From Parelaphostrongylus tenuis (taxonomy: Eukaryota; Nematoda; Chromadorea; Rhabditida; Metastrongylidae), in NCBI GenBank assembly GCA_019055375.1, contig JAHQIW010007131.1:186001-250000 (forward strand): a DNA stretch of 64,000 nucleotides, in the 5' to 3' direction. A program made the position numbers and the translations under genes. Of the stretch, positions 9,230 through 63,616 are shown one piece after another (positions within the stretch are counted from its first letter, which is position 1; every line of letters begins with the position of its first letter). Below the pieces are notes generated by a model. The model worked only from the letters and a program-made list of their open reading frames with translations, had not been told where the DNA came from and searched no databases.

Positions 9230-9350
9230 AAAAGTATGATGTATTTGACGATGTCAGCCAAGAGCAATCGAGTGTGCAACACTGGCCGTTCGGTGATTTT
9301 GTCACTTATCAATGCGCGTAAAAAATTTCGTCGTCGACTCCTCTATGTAA
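9230..9350 (-). repeat. Dispersed repeat, copy also at 25370-25470
   Basis: Read on the minus strand, 'tagaggagtcgacgacgaa' is followed by 'taagtgacaaaatcaccgaa' and 'ggccagtgttgcacactcgattgctcttggctg'. The same order occurs on the plus strand at 25370-25470 with about 80% identity by eye. It is probably the end of an unclassified element. Confidence 0.65.
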
Positions 9351-12149
9351 GGGGGTTCAACCCCGAGAGGGATTAGCTCAGATGAAGAGCATCGTGCAAT
9401 CGACGAAGATGGGAGGCCGAAAACACGTGTATTACACTGTGTAAGTGCCCATAACAGACCACATCCATAGCTCAAAAATAACTATCAGACTTAGAAACTC
9501 TTTTGCATGATGTTCTTCGGTGCGCAAGAAAAAACTCCTATAATACTCGCATATAGCCACTCGAATAAAAGTTTTGTCGCAGCTTACATCACTCAGGTTT
9601 ATCCAGAACTCTATTAGTACTTCCGATCAATTATTTTAGAACAGGTAAATTGCTATAGGCGAAGTTCACGATTAATGTGTTGTAATGTCACCCGATTATA
9701 AGAATGGCGAAATGTTGATTTAATCGCAAAGCGAATGACTTTACTTTTAAGATGGTACGGAAGCTGGTAATATTGCCTTCTAAAACCATAGTTTTTCAGC
9801 CTCTTGAGCCCTACATACGCGGTTTTTTAAGCAGATCAGCAGAATGATTATCTTAAGAAATGAAGTAAATATTCACGTCGAATTGAATATTAATTGCCAA
9901 GTTAATGCTGATTTCAATGCTAAGACTAGCTATGCTGAATGGTTGTTCGTCAAGAGATTAATGCAGACCGGCTCTTGAGTTATTGCCACGTCATTTGGCA
10001 GCTACGAAATACCGGCTGGTGCAGGAAGCATTGTTTGCCAGGAATATGGGCCACGTTAGAGAAGATCAACATCAATTCTGTATAAAATGGCACTGTCTGT
10101 TGTGAAAACAACGCCTGAACGTTGGTCTCTCTTCTGGATTCAACTCGTTAGGACAACGGCACACACATGCAGCACAACACCGACCAGTTGTGGATCATCC
10201 ACTCGGATCAACGCGGTTCTGAGGAAGGCGGAAGCGCCCAAATAGCCGTAAAGATATAGCTCTTCTGTCTACACCATATTTGCTCAATTATTCAAAAAGG
10301 TACTTATAAAACTATGTTTGTTCTTTTCATCTTGTAGAAATTGAAGTCTGTTTAACATAGAAATTGCTCATAAAGCAAGTAGATAATATATTCTAAAATA
10401 AGCTTGATCAGTCCAGAAGAAACTTAGGGTTTTATCGGAACTAATCATAAGCTTTGCTAAATTAGATGAAGTTATACAAATTTCCCATTTCATATCTGCT
10501 AGAATATAAGAAATTAGATGCATATCTCTCTTTCGAGTAATATTTTTACACTTCAATTCATTTTATGAGCAGCTGTCAGGAATGTCATAACACGCTTGAC
10601 TATGTCGAATATGATCCATCACTAATGGTTAATGGTTGTTGATGTCCTGCTTCAAATCCATATGTAAAACCATGAAAAGACGTGTAATGATGGAAATTAG
10701 TGGACTGAGTACAGAGAGAAGTTTATGATGAAGAAGAGTACAAGAAGGAGAACAAGAAAAAGAAGAAGAAAGGAAAAGGAAAAGACAGCAAGTGAGAGGA
10801 GAAGAAGGAAAGTAAGAAGAACAAGTAGAAAAAGACGAGTGAGAACAAGATAAATTGTACGAAAAAGAAGAATGTTATCAACTGAGTGAGAAAAAAAAAA
10901 CATCGATAAAGCTGCAGAGCCAGCAATATATTTGATGACGAACATTGTGAAAGCTATCAGTGAGTGTGGGTTTATCAGCAAACACTGGAAGATGTTACTT
11001 TTCATTTACAACGAGAGATGATGGTAAACGCTGTTAACCCCTCCCCCATTTGTCAGTGAGATAAATCATAATTTCGAACGAGTCAAAGTTAATCAATATG
11101 GTGAAAAGATTGATCATGCCGGGATTTCGTCAAAAATCAAATCGTAACCAATGAAAAGCTCACATCGGCCAAGAACGAGGTATAGGCTACTTATTCAAGT
11201 GTTTTTATAGTCTTATAGAAGTACAGCAGGTAATCATGAGACAATTGACATGTCCACGCTAAGCACTTTCCAAGGAGGCTATGTATTGAGCAGAAAAAAC
11301 TGCTATAATAAAACATGAAGCTCTTCAGCCGCAGCGATCTATTACGACATTATCAAAATCAATTTATCAGGCCAGTACCTCGTTTGCATGGCTTTTGAAA
11401 GAGTCGAAAATAAACAAAAATTAAACTTTGTTCGGCAATGAGCAGCTATCAGACTCGAAGGTAAGAGTACACTAATTGAGTTTCGAAGATTGTTATAGAA
11501 TAAAAAATCACTTTTAGCTGTGGAGATTACGCAATTTATGTGTGCGGACACTTCATAAATAATATCAAGATGTTATACCAGCAGTGAAAATTATTTCTAT
11601 TAGTTCGAGCACTTCCTTCAATACATGTTTTTTATATGAAAATTTTGCTGGGAAAAAAGTTGAATGAGGTTTTTGAACAATGAGTAGACTTCTACAAGAA
11701 CTAGCTGAATTGTAAAAAAGGACTGAACTAGACTTAACTGCACCTAAGAAATTCAGAATATCGGTGGGGTTGTGAATGGGATCACTAGATTGTGATACAT
11801 CAGTTCCTTTATGTTCCAAAATTTGTGAAAGTGACCCACATGATGTTCAGGTAGTCCCATACGTATTGCGCTACAAGAAAGTAACTGTCCAGCACTCCAG
11901 TTTTTTAAGCCCCCACCGTTTAGAGATGCATAACTGCCTTGTTGCTCGAGGAATTTCATAATTTAGTAATCTACAAACAATTATTATATACGGACGTTAA
12001 CATAATGAGCAGGTACCGCTATGCTCATCTCTATAACCTTATCACTTTATTTGGTCTGTGTCTTATTTTTTTACTGTGCGACTGAATCTCAATACTTCTA
12101 TCATGCAGTTCGTTGTTTTCCATCTTCTTTATAAGCGTCCTAAATTACT
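9351..12149. other. No gene seen; contains purine-rich tract
   Basis: No supportable exon. Notable content is the strand-asymmetric purine tract at 10725-10875, annotated separately. Other open frames here are short and lack family features. Confidence 0.4.
10725..10875 (+). repeat. Polypurine (AAG/AGG-rich) tract
   Basis: About 150 nt of nearly pure A/G on the plus strand, with repeated aagaag, gaaaag and gagaag units. The reverse strand encodes only F/L/S-rich low-complexity peptide, so the open frames there are not evidence for a gene. Confidence 0.8.
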
Positions 12150-12295: not shown

Positions 12296-13142
12296 CCCTC
12301 CCTCGCCCCTAAACCCCTACTATACAGATTTAGATCTATTGTGTTGGTGTTCGAGTTTCCGGTAGAACTACACAAGTTCCCAAATGGGCACTGATACTGC
12401 ATCTTATGCCCATCACTAATTTTGGTTCCATATGCTCTTGACGAGCAACCAGTCACGGTGTGGCTGGTTATGGCTTCAAAATCAGTACTCATTTAGTCAT
12501 CAGTAATCAGTAAAGACGCGGCAAACAAATTTCCGCAAGCCGTCACTACTCTTTGGCTCACATAACGAAAAGAAGGTTTAGAAGCGTTTCGTGTACTTAA
12601 AAATTAGTATTAAATGACCATAATTACTGTAATATACGCACACTAAAGGGTCCGCATGGTCTTCGAGGGGTTAGAGGAACAGCACGCTATGATACAGCAT
12701 TGTATGGCAGCAAACTTATCACGTTCACAGAGATTTGGCGAGCTCAAAATAAGTTTATATAGAATGGATTTGAGGAAACTATGAAAATGAGCACAAACCT
12801 GCTCATCACAGGGTTCGATGCTCGATGAAGACGAATGATTGTACTTTTAGTAACATCTCCATCATCACATTCACCACACCACACAACTGTTACTATTTTC
12901 GAATACTGAATGGAACAGATACTACTGATGGCGGTGGGGTTATGCAACTGCTTTTCAGTGATCATTTTCACAGTCAAAATCCTGCTTAAGTTCCAAAGCT
13001 TATCTCAGCAATCACGCCCATGGTCCTTCTACCTCTAGTTTTCCAAATGGAGACCATCGATAATTACCTTGACAGCAAGGGAAATCTACTTCGGAAAAAT
13101 TGTTTTCATGTACTCATCTACCATTCATATGTTTTGATACTA
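12296..13142. other. No feature recognised
   Basis: No exon, repeat or RNA structure that I can support. Confidence 0.3.
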
Positions 13143-13998
13143 TTCCTGATTTTCTTCTTTGAGCCAAACACGAGATTAACATTAATCTTTATTTGACAGC
13201 TGATGTTTCGGCAGTTCACCTTCTTCAAAGCCTGGAAAGGTCAAATTGTCTGCAATCCAATTAGTCAAACACCTCCATTACTCCTTTAGAAAAAATCACC
13301 AGACCTAAATTTCACTCTCATCAAGCACAAACTCAACCCTCAACATACTCAGCGCTTTTTCTGTGTGTTCCACTGAATGATTCAAGTGGAGATCACCGAA
13401 AGGACATCACATAGGCTCGTAATGCACCTCACCCATCAGAAACAGTCATATATACTGACTCAAATCACGTGTGATAACGAGGCATTCCTCCCTGCGGTTT
13501 ATAGTCGGATTGGTCGCATAGAGCACAGAAATACGACGGAGTTGATTTTGAGATCGAAGTCGCCATCCTTGCGTAGTAATAAAAAAAAGCGCGAAAAATT
13601 CTGGAGACACTTTAGATTAACACCACCATTTCGGCTATAAACCGCAGGGAGGAGTGCCTCGTTATCACTCGTGATATGACTCAGTATGTATGACTGTTGT
13701 TCTGATGGGTAGAGTGCATAAGGCGCCTATGAGATGTCCTTCCGGTGATCTCTACTTAAATCATTTGGTGGAACACATATAAAAAGCGGTGAGTATGCTG
13801 AAAGTTGGTTTTGTGCTTGATGCGATCAAAATCTATTTCTAGTGATCTTTTCTAAAGGAGTAATGAGGTGTTTGGCTGATTGGATTGCAGACAAATTGAC
13901 CTTTCCAGGCTCTGGAGAGGGCAAACTGGAGGAACGTCAGCTGTCAAATGAAGATTAATGTGACACCTCGTGTTTGGCTTAAAGAAGAAAATCAGGAA
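13143..13998. mobile_element. 856-bp near-palindromic element (long inverted repeat)
   Basis: The left arm begins 'ttcctgattttcttcttt' and the right arm ends with its complement 'aaagaagaaaatcaggaa'. Matching continues inward for more than 300 nt with scattered mismatches and small gaps, to a centre near 13570. Matched pairs include 'gagccaaacacgag' with 'ctcgtgtttggctta', 'ctgcggtttatag' with 'ctataaaccgcag', and 'aaagcgctgagtatg'-like segments. The open frame at 13377-13640 lies within the arm and is not a gene. It is best read as a fold-back DNA element or non-autonomous transposon. Confidence 0.85.
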
Positions 13999-14744
13999 TT
14001 ATATTGAAGCATGCCGAGGTCAATAGACAGTCGGTCTTGGGAATTTGTTGTGACATGTTTATCCATAAATCTCTTCTTTCTCTTTCTCTAATTTCTCAGG
14101 TTTTTTTTTTTTTTGGAAGCAGCATTATATCACGACACCTGGGAATCGCTTGTGAGGAGTGGCTTAGCAATTCGGTATCAGACGCTTATGATTCATAGAA
14201 GAAATAATTCTGCTGCCATAAGAAACGATATACATCCTTCATGGTCACTACTCCACCGCTTTTCTTTTTCTTTTCCTCTTTCTCCTGGAAATATGTTTCC
14301 TACCGTGAGCGTCAAAAGTAGAAATAAATAAATCTACCAGTACCGTTGATTTTTTCGAGTGAAAGGAAATCGCTTTGAAATATAAAGTTATAAATTAGGA
14401 GCAGTCTATTGCTTTCAGGAAATTTTCAGTGAATGAAAGGCTAATTCAATTTTCAATGGATTGCGCAATCTCTACCTGTAGAGCAGCTTTTCTAACAATA
14501 TTTAATTAAACTTTAAAGCCCATACATCGAAGTTGAAGACTGCCGTGCATGTGAGTGTTTGTATATATAAAAAAATTTTAACAAAATCAAATTTTTCGAT
14601 AGTTCATACAGCTTTCTCGTAGTTTAATTAACTTAGTATTTTTGCTATCAATCCAATGAATACATCATATAATCAAATATTAACCAATTTCTAATTACAT
14701 GTTAGGTATGAAATTGAATAAGATATGACACATATATTATTTAA
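13999..14744. other. No feature recognised
   Basis: AT-rich sequence with a 13-nt T run near 14100. No exon or repeat is supported. Confidence 0.3.
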
Positions 14745-22812: not shown

Positions 22813-25369
22813 CGGCTTTTCGCATACCAAGCAATTTTCTTAGGAATATTTGAAACTCATAGCGCTGCGAAAAAAAAGTAAAAACATGAGAATTCGTAGG
22901 TTACCAGTATTACTAGTAATATCTCTCGTTGTAAACCTACTTTTTGAAACGATTACAAAGGTGTTGACAACAAGCAAAGGTCTTCAAGGTTATCAAACTG
23001 CGGTGTCCAATTAAATATTATTTACGAGGATGCTGAATATAGATGGGATTTCTAAACTAGAGTAAATGAATATGATCAGACTGGAAGCCTCTATTTTGGT
23101 CTTTCGATCATCTGCCATAAAAGACATAGTTATAGCCATTCCTCGATTCTGTAACGAACCTCAGAATGGACTTAGCAACATACTCTAAGTGTCAAGCAAA
23201 CAACGATGTAATTTGACAAAATCTACCAAAGAACCTTTGGAAGTTTTTTGCAAAGAAATAAAACTAGAGAAAAACCAACATCAGCGAAAGTCGCAAGCAA
23301 AAATGCCACATGCCCTCATTTTTTTTGCTTCTTCGTCTTGAGAAACAGCGTTTTGTCACTTTTTTAAAGATGTAACGGCGTTTAGCAACATCGACTCTGG
23401 TGTCACTCTTTCAATTCTTCACAAAAAAATATCTTGAAGTTAAGAAATTGCGGAAGTAGTCTTTGGACTATGTCCAGGATGAAACCGTAGCAGTTGAGGT
23501 CATCGCAGTTGGTTACAGTGGTAGTAGAGCTTATTTAGTGAAAAACTTTTCGCTAGGTCAAAGGAGACATTTCTCGATGTCTTTGTTGTTATAAGTTGAT
23601 TTTCTCAGATATTTGGAACTGTTACGGAGGAATTAACTAAGCATAAATCGAAAAAGTAAATTGCATATATTGACAGAAAGAATCGACATGCCTTTTGGAT
23701 TGGTTAATTTCAATTATGTACTTGATTATCGTGATCGTGAAGTACTCATGTTCAAAGAGAGAAGTACGACCAAATACTGTTCCACCTAACCGTCAAGCAT
23801 AAAATGGCTTAGATATATGTTTATTCACTCATGTATTTTTTGCCAAATATGACTAATCGCTAACGAAAATTTATTGAATATCTCTGACAAAGCCAATGAG
23901 GTTTTTAGGGCATGACATCATCAAATGCTATGAGGATCAGTCTAAAGTTAGCTGGTAATCTTATACAGGCTTTTTTTTTTGCTTCATACTTTTCCAAACT
24001 TCAAGTGGTTCAACAATTTTGATCAGTTATTAATGAAATGGATAGAATTAGACACCTCGATAGAAAATGTGGCAAAAAACCTTTGAGGTGAAAATGCAGA
24101 TGGCCAAAACATTTTGTGTTCGTGTGAAATTCTCAACATCTGGCAGAACGAAAGAGCGAATTTTATCTAATATAATTAAATTTCATTAAGATGTTACGTA
24201 AAAGTTGGTCGCATTCTAGTAGGTATACAGAAGATAACATTTAGATTCCACGGAACCACTTAAGTTCTAGAGAAATCTAAAATGACTATATAACATTCAA
24301 AAAACCAACATTTTATAAGTTTTCGGCAATAAGGGCAGGAACATTTTTACTAAATCGTTGAGCTAGCAAGAGGTTATCATAGAAGTTTTGTTTGGCTAAT
24401 ACTTCCGCATCTTCATCACGTTTGAAGTGGCCATGATTCTTGTTGACTGTCCTTAGGCGCTTGTTCTTGTGTGTATTTTCCTAGTCGCGTCAGGTCGAAA
24501 CCAGCGGAGTAAAATTGCAGTACCTTATCTTAGCTTAATAGCTTATGAAAATTATGGAAACAACTGCATCTGCTGCATAAATTGCAACGCAGAATTTGAG
24601 ACTACCCAGACTATATCTCACTAACTAGCTATTTACTGCTGTAGTATCAATTGCATATGAAGTATATCGAGCAGTGGGATTGTAGGTGCCCTGCAATACA
24701 TGCACTATTTTTAGTTTGACTCGATGCGACAGTGACACCAGATATTCCATTTCTCAGGGATGTTAAAATGGTAATATAATTACTTGGAAAGACAGCAGCA
24801 CTGATTTGATACATTGGTGAGCCACGACAAGTCAACACTGAGGCCAAATGTGCATTCTGTTACTTCGAACGATGCCTCATGAAGGCGAATACATGATCTA
24901 ATCGTCGCGTTTGATAACGCCACATGTCTTATTCTTTTGTAACGATTCGAATCATAGGTACCTTCTTGTATCATGCATGCACTTTCCAATGAATCGCTTA
25001 TGTTGAACAAAGACTTTCTTACAAACTATTGATAAAGTATCGAGAATTCAAGAAAAACTTATTTTATAGATAGGCTTTCTTCCAGCGCTATAGCACTAAA
25101 TTAATATTATGTTTTCCACGCCTTGAGCATTATCATGCCTGTATCTCGTGCGACAAAGCGCTCTTCTTGAACTATAACTAACTATTGAATAGCGTGATTC
25201 TTGCAGAAAACAGACATTTATATAGCTCTTGAAAATAGACAAAAATATATACGTATAGCATATTCTGAACCTTTCGTATAGTCTGTTATGCCACTTATAC
25301 CGTTTAAGGCATGTGATTCTGCATTGTAGCCTCGACAGTTGCACGGTGCCTATCGGTTCAGTCAGTTCC
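22813..25369. other. No gene recognised; SINE fragment
   Basis: A plus-strand SINE family 1 fragment lies at about 24780-24905 ('agcagcactgatttgatacattgg' onward). The remainder is AT-rich with no supportable exon. Confidence 0.4.
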
Positions 25370-25470
25370 GTAGAGGAGCCGACGCCGAACTATATTCACC
25401 CACCACTAAGTGATAAAATCACCCAAATGGCAGTGTTCTACACTTGATTGCTCGTGGCTGGTGAAGCGTG
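25370..25470 (+). repeat. Dispersed repeat, partner of 9230-9350
   Basis: 'tagaggagccgacgccgaac', 'taagtgataaaatcaccc', then 'cagtgttctacacttgattgctcgtggctgg' match the minus strand at 9230-9350. It sits immediately left of the fold-back array. Confidence 0.65.
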
Positions 25471-53396: not shown

Positions 53397-54516
53397 TATG
53401 CGCATTGAAATGTAGGCTGAGAAGTGTTGGTTGGAAAATGGCGTGGAACAGATTCATGTCAGAAAGCTGCAGAAAATTGAACACAGATAACAGACCAATG
53501 ATGAAGGAACGGATAACAAAAAATTCACGATAAAAAACGGAAAATTGCTGAAGACGAGTTCTCACGATTTTCCCATGTATAGAGAAGTTATACTATGTTT
53601 TCAATGTCACTCAAGCTCTCTCAAGCGGTTCATACTTGAAAATCCAAATCGTAAGAAACTGTTTTAAAACATTTTTAGGAGGAGTCATTCGTACGTTAAC
53701 GATCGTTACTTGGTAACCACTGGAAACTTTAGCCTAAACTGTCTCGAAATCAAAATTTCTACTTTTTCAGAGTCGGTGAAATGGTAAATAACTCGAGTAA
53801 ATCGCTTGTCAATGAGCGTTCTAATCATAATCGTTGTACGGAGCAAATCTGTGCTCAGTCCTCATAAGGAAATTTTGAGCACATACTGATTATGATCCAA
53901 TTCAATTATTGCCATTATTCCAAACGTTCCTTTGCTCAAAAGAGAATTTCAAGAAGGATTTTGGGAATGGTGGAGGACTGTGCTAAACACGATAAGCGAT
54001 ATTTTCTTACAAGAGCCGAAGCCTATTGGCGAGAAGTCGTTTAGTTTCATCCGTTGTTGTGATAGAAAATACAAAACGTTTATGAAATGCAATACAAAAA
54101 TGTCAAAATTTTAAAAAAAAGAGATCACTTTGGCATGATTTTGTAGTCGCCGTAACATTATAATGGTCCTAAGTTTCGAGGCTGCGAGGTAAATATAAAG
54201 GATCGGCCAGAACGTTCCATCCACTCTCTAAGAGTCTTCTTCAAACATCATAAACACTCATGGCCTGGTGTTGTCACAAAAGATTTAAGCGATTGGCTAG
54301 TTTTAGTTGCGTAGCTTCTGTTGCTGCCTACAGATTTGTCGTATGTTCCCTCTGAATCATCAGTCCTCTTAATGGTCAGGCAGTAAACCAAAATACACAA
54401 CTCGCTAATCATTTACGAGAATTTTCTATACCTCTGCTATCCACCGCTCTTTTACAGACCCGCTCAAAACGAAATAATCTGATAAGGATATGACTTATTT
54501 TGAGCGGATAGGTCTT

Positions 54517-54564
54517 GTGCTAGATAGGCGCTTATCTCGTCCTATTGCGACTCATCAATAGCAC
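54517..54564 (-). ncRNA. Hammerhead ribozyme-like motif, decayed copy
   Basis: Minus strand: stem I GTGCTA/TAGCAC intact; core TTGATGA (C3 changed to T); stem II GTC/GAC around a CAATA-containing loop; then GAGA where GAAA is required; stem III ATA/TAT; C at the cleavage position. Two core changes should abolish cleavage. Confidence 0.5.
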
Positions 54565-54781
54565 CCACCCTCGGTTCCGTGGATCCCTTGGGGCTAAATA
54601 ATCCTCTAAAGTAATCGACGCCAAGTAAAAAATAATCACCTCAAATCGGATGATGGTATTAGCTGACGTTATGGTGACCGGCAGTAATACTATCATTCGA
54701 ATTGAGGTGATTATTTCCTACCCAGCGTCGATTCCTTCAGAGAGTTATCTAGCCTCAAGGGATCGACGGAAGCGAGGGAGG

Positions 54782-54828
54782 GTGCTACTGATGAGCCCAA
54801 TATGACGAAATAGGCGCCTATATAGCAC
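54782..54828 (+). ncRNA. Hammerhead ribozyme-like motif, intact core
   Basis: Layout: stem I GTGCTA (54782-54787) pairs with TAGCAC (54823-54828). The core is CTGATGA (54788-54794). Stem II is at 54795-54806 and has two mismatches. GAA follows at 54807-54809. Stem III ATAG/CTAT has loop GCGC (54810-54821), and A sits at the cleavage position 54822. All conserved core bases of a type I hammerhead are present. The mirror copy suggests stem II was once GTCC-CAATA-GGAC, fully paired. Activity of the present sequence is uncertain because stem II is weak. Confidence 0.6.
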
Positions 54829-55740
54829 TAGACCTATCGGCTCAAAACAAGTCATATCCTTATCAGAAATTTTATTTTATCGCTCCAAAGCGACATAGTA
54901 AAAAAATTCCTTTAGATTATATATGGCCAATAGCCGTTAGCTTAACAGGGTTCAAAGCCGATATGTGCTTACCAGAACAAACCCATGACGGTTGGTTACC
55001 GCCAGCTTCGCTAACTTATAACGCAGAAAGAGTGTTAGCAGAGAACCGCCTTGGTGGTGTAGTAGTAGTACGTGCCTCCGGCATGAATGAAACGCAGATC
55101 CAGCTTCCCAAGAAGTTCAGAGTTATACATATCAATCAAATCCTTGGATATGAAGATATAACGCACTATTAGTTGCACGACACAAAAAGTGCCAGCTAGT
55201 GGGTTTGACCCACCTTCTAAGGTCCACCTTCGAAGGTGATTAATAGAAGGAGATAAACCTGCTCTGTTGACAGTCAAGAGGTTACTGGCTCAACGAATTG
55301 TTAAACATTGCTTGATAATTCAGCAGTGATGCGAAGTAAACAGTTTTTCATTTACTTCTAGCGGATTCCAACACTTCTGCATTCAATTCATTTTGTCGCT
55401 TTCATTGTTTCAAAGGTCCCTGAACATTTTACGTGTCATTCTACTGCAGATTGGATATTTATTTTCTTTGGAAATGTCCTAGAATGCTAATCGGGTCGAA
55501 TTCTTTGCAGCTCGAATATATCCGAGCTAAGGCGTTGCATCACGGTTGCAAGAAAGCGCTGGAATAGGGGATCCAACATTGTCTTTCAACCTGATAACCT
55601 GCATCATTAGCCACTTTCGTGTCCCAATTTCCATAAAAATGCTCTTTTCTGTGCGGAAATAAATAATCAATGAAGAAATCTATTTGATTTTCAACTGGCG
55701 CGACTAAGAAAGACGAGTAGTTATGCTTCTGCAATTTCAG

Positions 55741-55989: not shown

Positions 55990-56229
55990 GTATTTTTGAG
56001 CTGTACAATAACTTAGATTTCACACATGGAAGTAAGTAACCTTGAAATCTACGTTTCTACATAGCTCACAATATCATGAATGTTAATCAGCAGACAGTTT
56101 AATCATATATAGTCGAGCCTTATGAATAGTTAAGTCATTACTTTACTGAGGAAGCGCTGTATGAGCTTTAAAAAAAAACTCTGAGTACTTTTACGGTTAT
56201 AAGAGAACAAATGAATATTCGATGTCATT
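55990..56229. other. Intron sequence, no feature recognised
   Basis: Short AT-rich gap between exon Q and the fold-back element. Confidence 0.35.
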
Positions 56230-56953
56230 CGCTGTAAAAGGACTTTTCATAGGAGTGTTAGTAACCATTCGAAAGCTTGAATCTCTGGCTAGAGCTCTAC
56301 GTGGCCGGTTTTTCAAAAACCCTTTTATAGCGCTGTGAAATTCAAAATAAAATTATGTCGCACACGACCATGGCATTTTTTTCCTATCTTGCTTGTATCT
56401 CACTGGTCCGAACTCCTTCCTTAAAGTGCTAGTACTCTTTCGATAGGACAAGTCGTCGAAAACTCAAATATGTGTTTGCTTTTTGGAAAAGCTCTTTGGC
56501 AGTGCTGGTAGGAAGAAGAAAGCGTTTGTGTTCTAAACATCGCCGGATAGAGCTCTTTTTTTAAGACTTTACTAATCATCTGATAGCGTAAGCTTCATTG
56601 ATTCCAATGCTGCGCTTATTTTCTAGTAAGTTTGTTTCACTGCACTGTAGGAGGGAAAATAAGATTGAGTTTTACATATTCGGTGGTTTGCTTACCGGCT
56701 AACCTACGGGCGGAGCAATCAATCGATGACCTGACGAATGTGGGGTGCAACTTGTTCTTCAGGTGGGAATTTCTTCTCCGCTTTCAAAGATACTCCATAT
56801 AAAAAGGCGCGCGGCTGATGTGAAACATAAGTTCATTTTTGATTTTACATCGCAAAAAAAGGTTGTTTGGAAAACCGACTACGTAGGGCTGAAACCAGAA
56901 ATTTAAGCTTTCGCATGATTACTAACACTCTTAAGAAAAACTCTTGTGCAGCG
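56230..56953. mobile_element. Fold-back repeat, copy A (724 bp)
   Basis: The left end 'cgctgtaaaaggacttttcataggagtgttagtaaccattcgaaagcttgaatctctgg' is matched in reverse complement by the right end (56870-56953): '...ccagaaatttaagctttcgcatgattactaacactcttaagaaaaactcttgtgcagcg'. The arms are about 100 nt, the middle is unrelated, and there is no transposase. Confidence 0.85.
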
Positions 56954-57511
56954 ATTGAGGTCAAATATTAGCGCTGTCTAACATAAGAAAAGATGGTCAA
57001 CTCAGACAGAGAGAGGTGTTCATAAACGTTTCCCTTCATAAAAATCAGTGAACGCTTAAATATGAGCGAGGTAAGGAAACATCACAGGTATTACTGAAAT
57101 TGTTGTTTGTCATCGCATCGAGTGAATGGATTACGATATATGCGTTTGCATTGGCCGTGTGGGAACAGTTACGTTATCGTTCTACCTGTTCGAAGGACTC
57201 GAAAACGAAGGGGTCATATTTTAGAGCAATGAAATTTGGGCTTCCTGGTTTTTAGCTTTTTTAATGTAGTCTTGGCATCCTTTACATAAGTTCATAACCT
57301 CTTTTTGCCCACTGATTGCTGCTAGGATAATACTAGAGTACAGACCACGTAATATCAATACTTACTACACTTGAGAATATCTTAAATGTGTGATAGCCGA
57401 CGTTACTGCTTCGCCTTCCCTTTATCACTTGCGTGGTATGCCCGGAATAGCTTTCTCGACTACTGGTTCGACGTCGCTGAGTCACGTCTACTCTGCTTAA
57501 GTATCTTTCAG
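56954..57511. other. Intron sequence, no feature recognised
   Basis: No exon or repeat supported. Confidence 0.3.
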
Positions 57512-60779: not shown

Positions 60780-61345
60780 GATAAACAGCACTGGCGTGAC
60801 TGGTCTTTACCAAATTCAATACACCCCATTATTGTACTAGGTTTAGAAAAAAGTTCCTTAACGCCGCGTTTAGTGAAATTTGAAGATGTGTTGCATTTCG
60901 AACTTGTTCTGATGGTCACGCTATCAATGACGAATCCTACTGCGAGCACCTGAACCAAGTCTACGATGCGTTGGAGGATAAAGTACCCGGTATTGGATCG
61001 TCAAAGACGCGCGATGTTTCAGCAAAATGCTAAACCTCAAACCATAAAGAAGACTAAGCAAAAGTTTGATGAATTTGAGAGAACAGAGATCTTGCCGCAG
61101 CCAGCCTACAGCCCAGATGCTGCACTGTCCGATTAAGGTCCAGTTCCGCGTAATGAAACATTTGCTGTATAGACGCCGATTCGAGAAATTTGATCAAAGT
61201 GAAGAAGCCATATCAGGAGTCTTTTTATTCAAAGCCCAAAGAATGGCGATTTCGAGGACATCCGGAAGCTTACAGATCGCTGGCAAAAGATCGTGGATAA
61301 TGCTATTTTTGAGAATAATTATTGTCTCATAAGTATTAAGCCAAC
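60780..61345 (+). mobile_element. Mariner transposase pseudogene, C-terminal part
   Basis: The plus strand gives YCEHLNQVYDALEDK, then RRAMFQQNAKPQ where mariners have a catalytic DNARPH motif (the D is lost here). It continues LPQPAYSPDAALSD (third D region) and DIRKLTDRWQKIVDN near the end. Several frameshifts and stops; a dead copy. Confidence 0.85.
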
Positions 61346-61959
61346 ATGTCATGTGGTCTGTTAATGGGCTCCTGTACAGCCCGATACACGTGTTTCGACC
61401 TTACACTCTCGTCAGTCGGGCAGAACCCTTCGTCTTTTCACTCTTTTAGCAATCTTATCGAGAGCCCCTACTCTCCTTATAAAGAGGTAGCGTCGACGAA
61501 CGATTTGCACTTTAAGTCGAGTGAAATTGTCACCAAATTTACAGTATGGTTATACCGTTCCAACATAACTCATTTCAAGTATCACCTCCTTTTGACAACT
61601 ATGAAGCTTATAAATCCTGCGATGAAATTGTATTGACGACTAAATCGTCATAATCGCAAGACATGGGATAAAGAAATCGATGTCTTCCACGAGTTCTAGT
61701 TGTCGGGTAGAAGTCCATTAGTATTAGAGTTTATTGTGATAGACTGTGGTAGTCATTATATTGTAGATTGACTTTTGAATCAATGTTTTTTCGAGCTCTG
61801 AAACAAGTACGTATATTAACATACATTTTAGACGAAGATTCTGGGTTGTCCCATAATTTCATTCGCACTATTGTATCATTCAATTTTCTCCTAATCAAAA
61901 TTGGATTATTGCCAAAAGGGTGTAGTGTGTTGAGGAACATTTGAGCAGTTCACGAAGAC
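61346..61959. other. No feature recognised
   Basis: Lies between two mariner pseudogenes; possibly older element sequence. No exon supported. Confidence 0.3.
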
Positions 61960-62640: not shown

Positions 62641-62940
62641 TTACATGAACGCTTAGAAATGGCCTAGTTCGGCGACTTTTGAGGTTTCCGAAATAATCGT
62701 CTCGACAAGCATTCTAGGAGACGTTCAAAGATCTTTGTGGAGGATGAATGCGATGAAACGAATCGAATGGAAGAACTGCTGCGATTTGCACAGCAATTTG
62801 TGATAGTTGGGCGCTTAAAGTGTAGAAAATACAATGTTATCTATGTGCAACCTCTCCGTGTGTCAGACCTGTCTATGAGCCAGGGGTACTGATCACTCGG
62901 TGGAAGCTGCGTAGCGGAACAATTCAAAAACTGATCCCTT

Positions 62941-63616
62941 CCGCTAGACAAGAGCTTTTCAGGAAAATGTTAGTAACCATTCGAAAGCTTAAATCTCTAG
63001 CTAGCGCCGTACGTAGCCTGTTTTCAAAAAGACCTTACTTTAATGCTGTGAAATCCGAAATAAATAATATTTGACACAGGTTGCGCACTTTAACTATCAC
63101 TTGGAAGAAAGTAAAACACATGAATGTGCCAAGAACATCTTTTAAAATCACAGTCAGGCGTTTAATCTGCAGTTTCTTCCAAAGGGAGAAAAAATATATA
63201 ATCGAATAACAAAAATCGCACTTTTTTATATTACACGAAGACGCATATCGATCGATCGATGACGGGGTCGTCGCATCGGATATACAGAGACCACTCACGC
63301 TGACCATAGAATAGCCGGTAAACAAGCACGCCGAAGATTTTATCGATCCTATTTTCCCTGCTACAGTGCAGTGAAAGTCTTTGCAGAAAACAAGCACAGC
63401 AATAGAATTGCGGAAACTTACGGTATCGAAAGATTGCTTATAGTCTGAAGGAGCTCTGTACTTTGAAAAATATACGCGTGTGAAACACAAATTTTTTTCC
63501 TTTCGTTGAAGCGTTACAAAAAGACTTCTTCAAAAGGCCGACCATGTACAGCGCTAGCCAGAGATTTAAGCTTTTGAATGGTTACTAATTCTCTTATCAA
63601 AAGTTCTTGTCCAGTA
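62941..63616. mobile_element. Fold-back repeat, copy B (676 bp)
   Basis: The left end 'agacaagagcttttcaggaaaatgttagtaaccattcgaaagcttaaatctctagctagcgccgtacg' and the reverse complement of the right end (63505-63616) match for about 110 nt. It shares its ends with copy A at 56230. A 151-codon minus frame (63035-63490) spans the middle but has no known domain. Confidence 0.85.

Follow-up and report, generated by a model that had tools for sequence, protein, structure and literature searches.

Introduction

Metazoan non-LTR retrozymes consist of short non-coding units in tandem with a GC content below 50%, carry type I hammerhead ribozymes (HHRs) and are flanked by target duplications of more than 4 bp (PMC7229834). 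All of these features are shared by the element described here, which differs from them in its two opposed, head-to-head arrays and in ends fixed at two positions of the RNA, and which is known here from its DNA sequence. The main text of PMC7229834 contains neither the word "inverted" nor the word "nematode". According to the same text, the enzyme that spreads animal retrozymes has so far been inferred only; a role of Penelope-like elements (PLEs) was proposed earlier on general grounds (PMC7229834).

Rotifer PLEs form inverted repeats, one of which bears a tail, and have duplications of 8–10 bp; inverted Penelope insertions with a one-sided tail were ascribed to self-priming, and cross-mobilisation between PLE families was not seen (PMC3846280). 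The lizard PLE PAc was reported to cut and extend both target strands in vitro, starting at two adjacent sites within its RNA, the interval between which is the known tail; its start sites did not differ between the strands in vitro, and an active hammerhead was not required for insertion (PMC11167929). With PLEs the present element shares the inverted arrangement, the extra tail on one end, duplications of about 8–12 bp, two adjacent internal start sites and a hammerhead nearby (PMC3846280, PMC11167929). It differs from them in its unit of 283 nt, its lack of an ORF and its full type I motif, whereas the HHR-like motif of the PLE in the genome studied here is minimal and has one additional A.

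The window (the whole stretch of DNA that was analysed, 64,000 nucleotides of Parelaphostrongylus tenuis) contains a palindrome that is most probably an animal-type retrozyme, a non-autonomous retroelement copied by PLE machinery from both cut target strands by way of two neighbouring hairpins. The element belongs to a known kind, the retrozymes; its outward-facing inverted arrays with PLE-like ends appear to be new. Among the titles and abstract openings searched, none reported retrozymes in nematodes or in inverted arrays, which is no proof of their absence. Since one genome holds young ribozyme arrays together with an intact PLE with like ends, both questions, that of the enzyme and that of the inverted form, can be put to the test with a single purified protein and a single RNA of 283 nt.

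Results

The insertion in the window: The insertion (442 bp) is a decayed copy, the arms of which are inverted copies of one another (83% identical). Its features are listed in Table 1. The left end lies at about unit position 96 (site B) and the right end at about 44 (site A); comparison of the flanks gave no clear target duplication (best 6 bp). The bounds given by the sequence-only reading (54465–54885) had to be moved, the left one having been placed 39 bases short and the right one 18 bases long.

Table 1. Features of the palindromic insertion and of a PLE relic in the window.
Feature	Position	Strand	Basis or comment
Whole insertion, decayed palindromic retrozyme copy	54426–54867		Mapped locally against the 283-bp unit
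Left arm, 0.92 unit, ends at site B	54426–54685	- (HHR sense)	88.5% identical to young unit
Right arm, 0.65 unit, ends at site A	54684–54867	+ (HHR sense)	88.1% identical to young unit
Predicted hairpin A, whole in left arm only; loop contains site A	54455–54516	-	Fold of young unit; placed by eye
Predicted hairpin B, 5' half up to B end; stem decayed here	54426–54448	-	By position
Left hammerhead motif, two core changes	54517–54564	-	Rfam Hammerhead_1, 22.3 bits, below cut-off
Right hammerhead motif, intact core, broken stem II; predicted cut after 54822	54782–54828	+	Descriptor match
Palindromic PLE relic, A end left, B end right	13142–14045		83–87% identical to L051; ends at L051 positions 5597 and 5643

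Hammerhead motifs: A type I motif facing outward in each arm, as the sequence-only reading had claimed, was borne out. The strict descriptor (intact core, 6-bp stem I and stem III) gave two sites in the window, namely the right motif and a third hammerhead on the minus strand (61379–61421); any site at all occurred in 6 of 1000 dinucleotide shuffles. The right motif keeps all core bases, as had been stated, and two of the four positions of its stem II are paired. The two core changes ascribed to the left motif are likewise present. When Rfam Hammerhead_1 (gathering score 34 bits) was used, the left motif was reported with an E value of 0.017 on 1.4 kb and of 0.79 on the whole window; the right motif was absent from the output of both searches, though its core is intact, and at the gathering score neither of the two palindrome hammerheads was found in the window. 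With core changes in one hammerhead, a broken stem II in the other and no clear duplication, the window copy is a fossil, and the claim of interest depends on its relatives.

The covariance model, which failed to reach its cut-off within the window, succeeded with these relatives: in the genome, at least 69 sites were obtained at E values up to 10 and at least 20 above the curated cut-off (best 74 of 119811 candidates scored). All 20 places inspected among the 69, 10 of them for an above-cut-off match, were relatives of the 283-bp unit. Some Rfam hammerhead match was found in 11 of 14 prokaryotic control genomes, in none of them above the cut-off.

An HHR profile gave 98 matches in 29 loci, 88 of which were well covered (at least 44 of 48 HHR columns). 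The perfect type I hammerhead GTGCTACTGATGAGTCCCAATAGGACGAAATAGGCGCCTATATAGCAC was matched in every column by 53 of these 88 motifs, which upholds the deduction from the two arms that stem II was paired throughout in their ancestor. Young units are near-identical and carry a perfect type I motif with stem II fully paired. The core is thus kept in the young copies, but little covariation signal is to be had from stem II, which is nearly invariant among the relatives. Among 41 distinct motifs, both bases of pair 2 in stem III vary (U-A in 19, C-G in 12), and the free core position N7 is other than U in nine; the constancy of the core is no test in this set, which was gathered by a pattern demanding most of the core.

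The family in the genome: In the 481.5-Mb assembly, at least 180 matches to the window element were obtained (best 40 of 3216 candidates scored), repeated palindromes of about 400 bp among them. The relatives, about 88% like the window copy, consist of 283-bp units in tandem that run on one strand and then on the opposite strand (in many of the matches listed). From copy to copy, the arms comprise about 0.5 to 5.3 units and the central junction differs. The unit (GC content 43.8%) is non-coding, its longest open stretch being 62 codons in read-through, and encodes neither a reverse transcriptase (RT) nor a GIY-YIG nuclease. Three of the four features by which a metazoan non-LTR retrozyme is recognised were found, namely a type I hammerhead in each unit, tandem non-coding units of 150–450 bp with low GC content, and target duplications; the fourth is its expression as linear and circular RNA produced by self-cleavage. 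A search of phage records gave no match.

Four copies with differing flanks (L001, L010, L044 and L046) have a near-identical central junction (unit positions 120–121 and 140–143, in a numbering that is off by one from that of the end positions) beside a predicted hairpin. This common junction may be either a stop hotspot of the enzyme or the mark of a palindrome moving as such.

Ends, target duplications and empty sites: Copies were mapped with unit position 1 as the first base past the expected ribozyme cut. The 27 mapped copies were taken from the best genome matches, and the sample leans towards young and window-like copies. The A/B count left out L019 (right end unresolved) and L050 (contig edge), the near-identical L021 and L023 (to L020 and L022) and L048 (duplicate of L047), and places already counted that had been read again in opposite orientation or as longer stretches (L004–L009, L013–L015, L017, L018 and L024–L030). 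Two of the 27 copies are one-sided (L034 and L043). In all 25 two-sided copies, the RNA 3' ends point outward, which is the layout expected from priming by both target 3' ends.

The ends fall at two sites, A (positions 35–49) and B (82–109), when only bases before the duplication are counted; bases common to element and target carry individual ends no further than 57 (A) and 111 (B). Each of the 19 two-sided copies with duplications has one A and one B end, and so do four more two-sided copies, that of the window included, in which no duplication is clear. The Penelope-type inverted arrangement with a tail at one end is therefore present in 23 of the 25 two-sided copies; the rule is broken in L012 and L047.

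With tight offsets, target duplications of score 9 or more were found in 18 of 27 copies, as compared with 5 of 174 mismatched flank pairs. A search with wider offsets recovered L036 and L042 as well and gave such duplications in 20 of 27 copies, 19 of them two-sided (figures that stand without a null), and no clear duplication in the other seven. The duplications range in length between 9 and 16 bp; that of L033 is a microsatellite. Paralogous empty sites were obtained for three copies, the joined flanks of which align through the site with target relatives that lack an interruption (74–77% alike). The empty site of L038 lies within the window, in uninterrupted copies of another palindromic repeat (56214–56969 and 62917–63614). 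L044 was excluded from this test on account of another retrozyme piece in its flank.

Hairpins A and B: The order within the retrozyme unit is hammerhead, hairpin A, hairpin B. In the predicted fold of the young unit, a strong hairpin (positions 7–67, -17.0 kcal/mol), the stability of which was reached by 1 of 300 shuffles, has site A in its loop region. Site B lies in the loop of the adjacent predicted hairpin (75–124); 70 of 300 shuffles were as stable, and by predicted energy this retrozyme hairpin is weak and unremarkable. The mean unpaired probability was 0.62 at the A ends and 0.66 at the B ends, versus 0.41 across the unit. The A-loop word TTATCA is retained in 13 of 20 more distant copies (counted by eye). 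Sixteen of 19 B ends lie at 82–93, on or just before the word AGAAGTA (87–93), and the other three lie beyond it, at 105–109. Covariation of the hairpins among recent copies was not used as proof, since these copies have diverged too little and some rows are misaligned at the junction.

PLEs of the same genome: A genome search for GIY-YIG domains gave at least 150 matches, in open frames of up to 902 aa; the best 150 of 1723 candidates were scored, all of them above the cut-off. About 20 matches are paired within some 5 kb, the minus strand first and the 3' ends outward (by eye). An intact PLE ORF of 892 aa with RVT_1 (reverse transcriptase) and GIY-YIG was found in L051, which adjoins a 99.8% copy head to head with a 12-bp duplication. 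Its two ends are 46 nt apart, at +67 (A) and +113 (B) after the cut expected in its minimal HHR-like motif, which has an extra A and gave no match in an Rfam search. The best relative of the PLE protein is 73% identical; the best among those with a species name come from Necator, Ancylostoma, Haemonchus and further strongylid nematodes, which makes a host from this group very likely. No relative of known structure was found by sequence search.

A 12-bp duplication with one short and one long end was present in all three PLE palindromes considered (L051; C3825, examined at its two ends only; and L060, from a family 68% alike, with the long end about 60 nt further out). The B end of L051 lies just before AGAAGTA, in a hairpin with a CAGTCG/CGACTG stem, and those of C3825, L061 and the PLE relic of the window lie about 5–10 nt earlier. 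The flanks of the relic showed no clear target duplication. Rfam gave a below-cut-off MIR821 match at the relic, probably a mere reflection of its inverted repeat. The window also holds another PLE ORF remnant at 2185–2638 on the minus strand, which includes part of the nuclease region.

The hairpin-B motif CAGTCG..AGAAGTA..CGACTG is common to the retrozyme and the PLE. This pattern, picked after both sequences had been seen, had 663 matches in the genome (331 + 332), as opposed to 1 (1 + 0) in a reversed control; all matches listed were retrozymes or PLE ORF starts, eight of them PLEs. Overall, the A–B regions of the two elements did not align above shuffles (617 and 517 of 2000 reached the score), and as far as these comparisons go the likeness is confined to the hairpin words. 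The retrozyme inserts as PLEs do but is itself no PLE.

Discussion

From the units, the ribozyme motif, the end rule, the duplications, the paralogous empty sites and the PLEs of matching layout, all of them visible in the assembly, we infer the RNA steps, the geometry of the cut and an action in trans. Multimeric transcripts would undergo cleavage by the hammerhead, perhaps followed by circularisation. The PLE protein, with its RT and GIY-YIG nuclease, would cut the target with a stagger, leaving 3' overhangs of about 12 nt, as the duplications suggest. Reverse transcription would then be primed at internal positions of the RNA by each target 3' end, with loop A serving one of them and loop B the other, and the two cDNAs would run inward across one or more units before joining, which would give a palindrome with outward-facing ribozymes. 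The use of one A and one B end per insertion goes beyond the in vitro data on PAc, where the strands did not differ. A point against this model is that the B ends of PLEs are found at distances of 0 to about 10 nt ahead of the loop word AGAAGTA and do not all lie in it.

The sequence-only reading had taken the carrier to be DNA-transposon-like, and the palindromic form, the target duplications and the repeated palindromes of similar size in the genome would indeed suit a foldback or MITE-type transposon whose terminal inverted repeats had acquired a hammerhead. Such a carrier was not borne out and is now extremely unlikely: termini that are not identical but end at differing unit positions (A and B), arms and centres that vary from copy to copy and duplications of no fixed length are at odds with it, and PLEs with RT and GIY-YIG show the matching layout. 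Varying unit numbers, junctions and duplications, combined with ends at two fixed RNA positions, make the layout that of Penelope-type retrotransposition and not that of a terminal-inverted-repeat element. Mobilisation by another non-LTR retrotransposon (a LINE) might be considered, as animal retrozymes were assigned to LINEs or PLEs by inference only (PMC7229834), but is very improbable, given that the two-site ends, the inverted arrangement, the duplications of about 12 bp and the hairpin-B motif all recur in the PLEs of this genome, the group that the comparison covered.

Priming might also have occurred on a single strand, the second arm arising by fold-back of the cDNA, as was proposed for rotifer PLEs (PMC3846280). 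We regard this as unlikely, although the centre of L032 is nearly symmetric, with variants common to both arms beside the junction, and four copies share nearly one junction; fold-back gives no reason why the first end should lie at B and the second at 35–49, in loop A, in 19 of 19 copies. Copying from both target strands by PLE machinery is thus retained as the preferred reading. As to its template, the array of L032 is mixed, with unlike units and a private variant common to both arms beside the junction, and those of L034 and L039 are uniform for their variants. The pattern in L032 agrees better with self-priming or with a multimeric RNA than with a single monomer circle; the template may be either a circle or a linear multimer.

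Short non-coding SINEs are known to borrow from a partner LINE the tail, that is, the RNA feature at which the partner's RT starts. Here, the common feature would instead consist of two hairpins that lie beside a ribozyme and serve two target strands. We tentatively suggest, as a possibility that falls somewhat short of an even chance, that retrozymes are parasites of PLEs that copy the double start module of their partner, that a single and probably circular ribozyme RNA serves both cut target strands simultaneously, each of them using its own loop, and that the same concerted priming accounts for two features of PLEs that have long been puzzling, their inversion and the tail on one side. If this is true, every two-sided insertion would be a palindrome made by concerted priming on two strands.

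Other repeats in the window: The third hammerhead, which has an intact core, belongs to a second dispersed repeat family, more copies of which lie at 9289–9482 (plus strand) and 25270–25425 (minus strand). This family also occurs in many of the fetched loci, in a few of them as inverted pairs facing outward. At 60901–61330, inspection by eye pointed to a remnant resembling the ORF of a mariner-type transposase.
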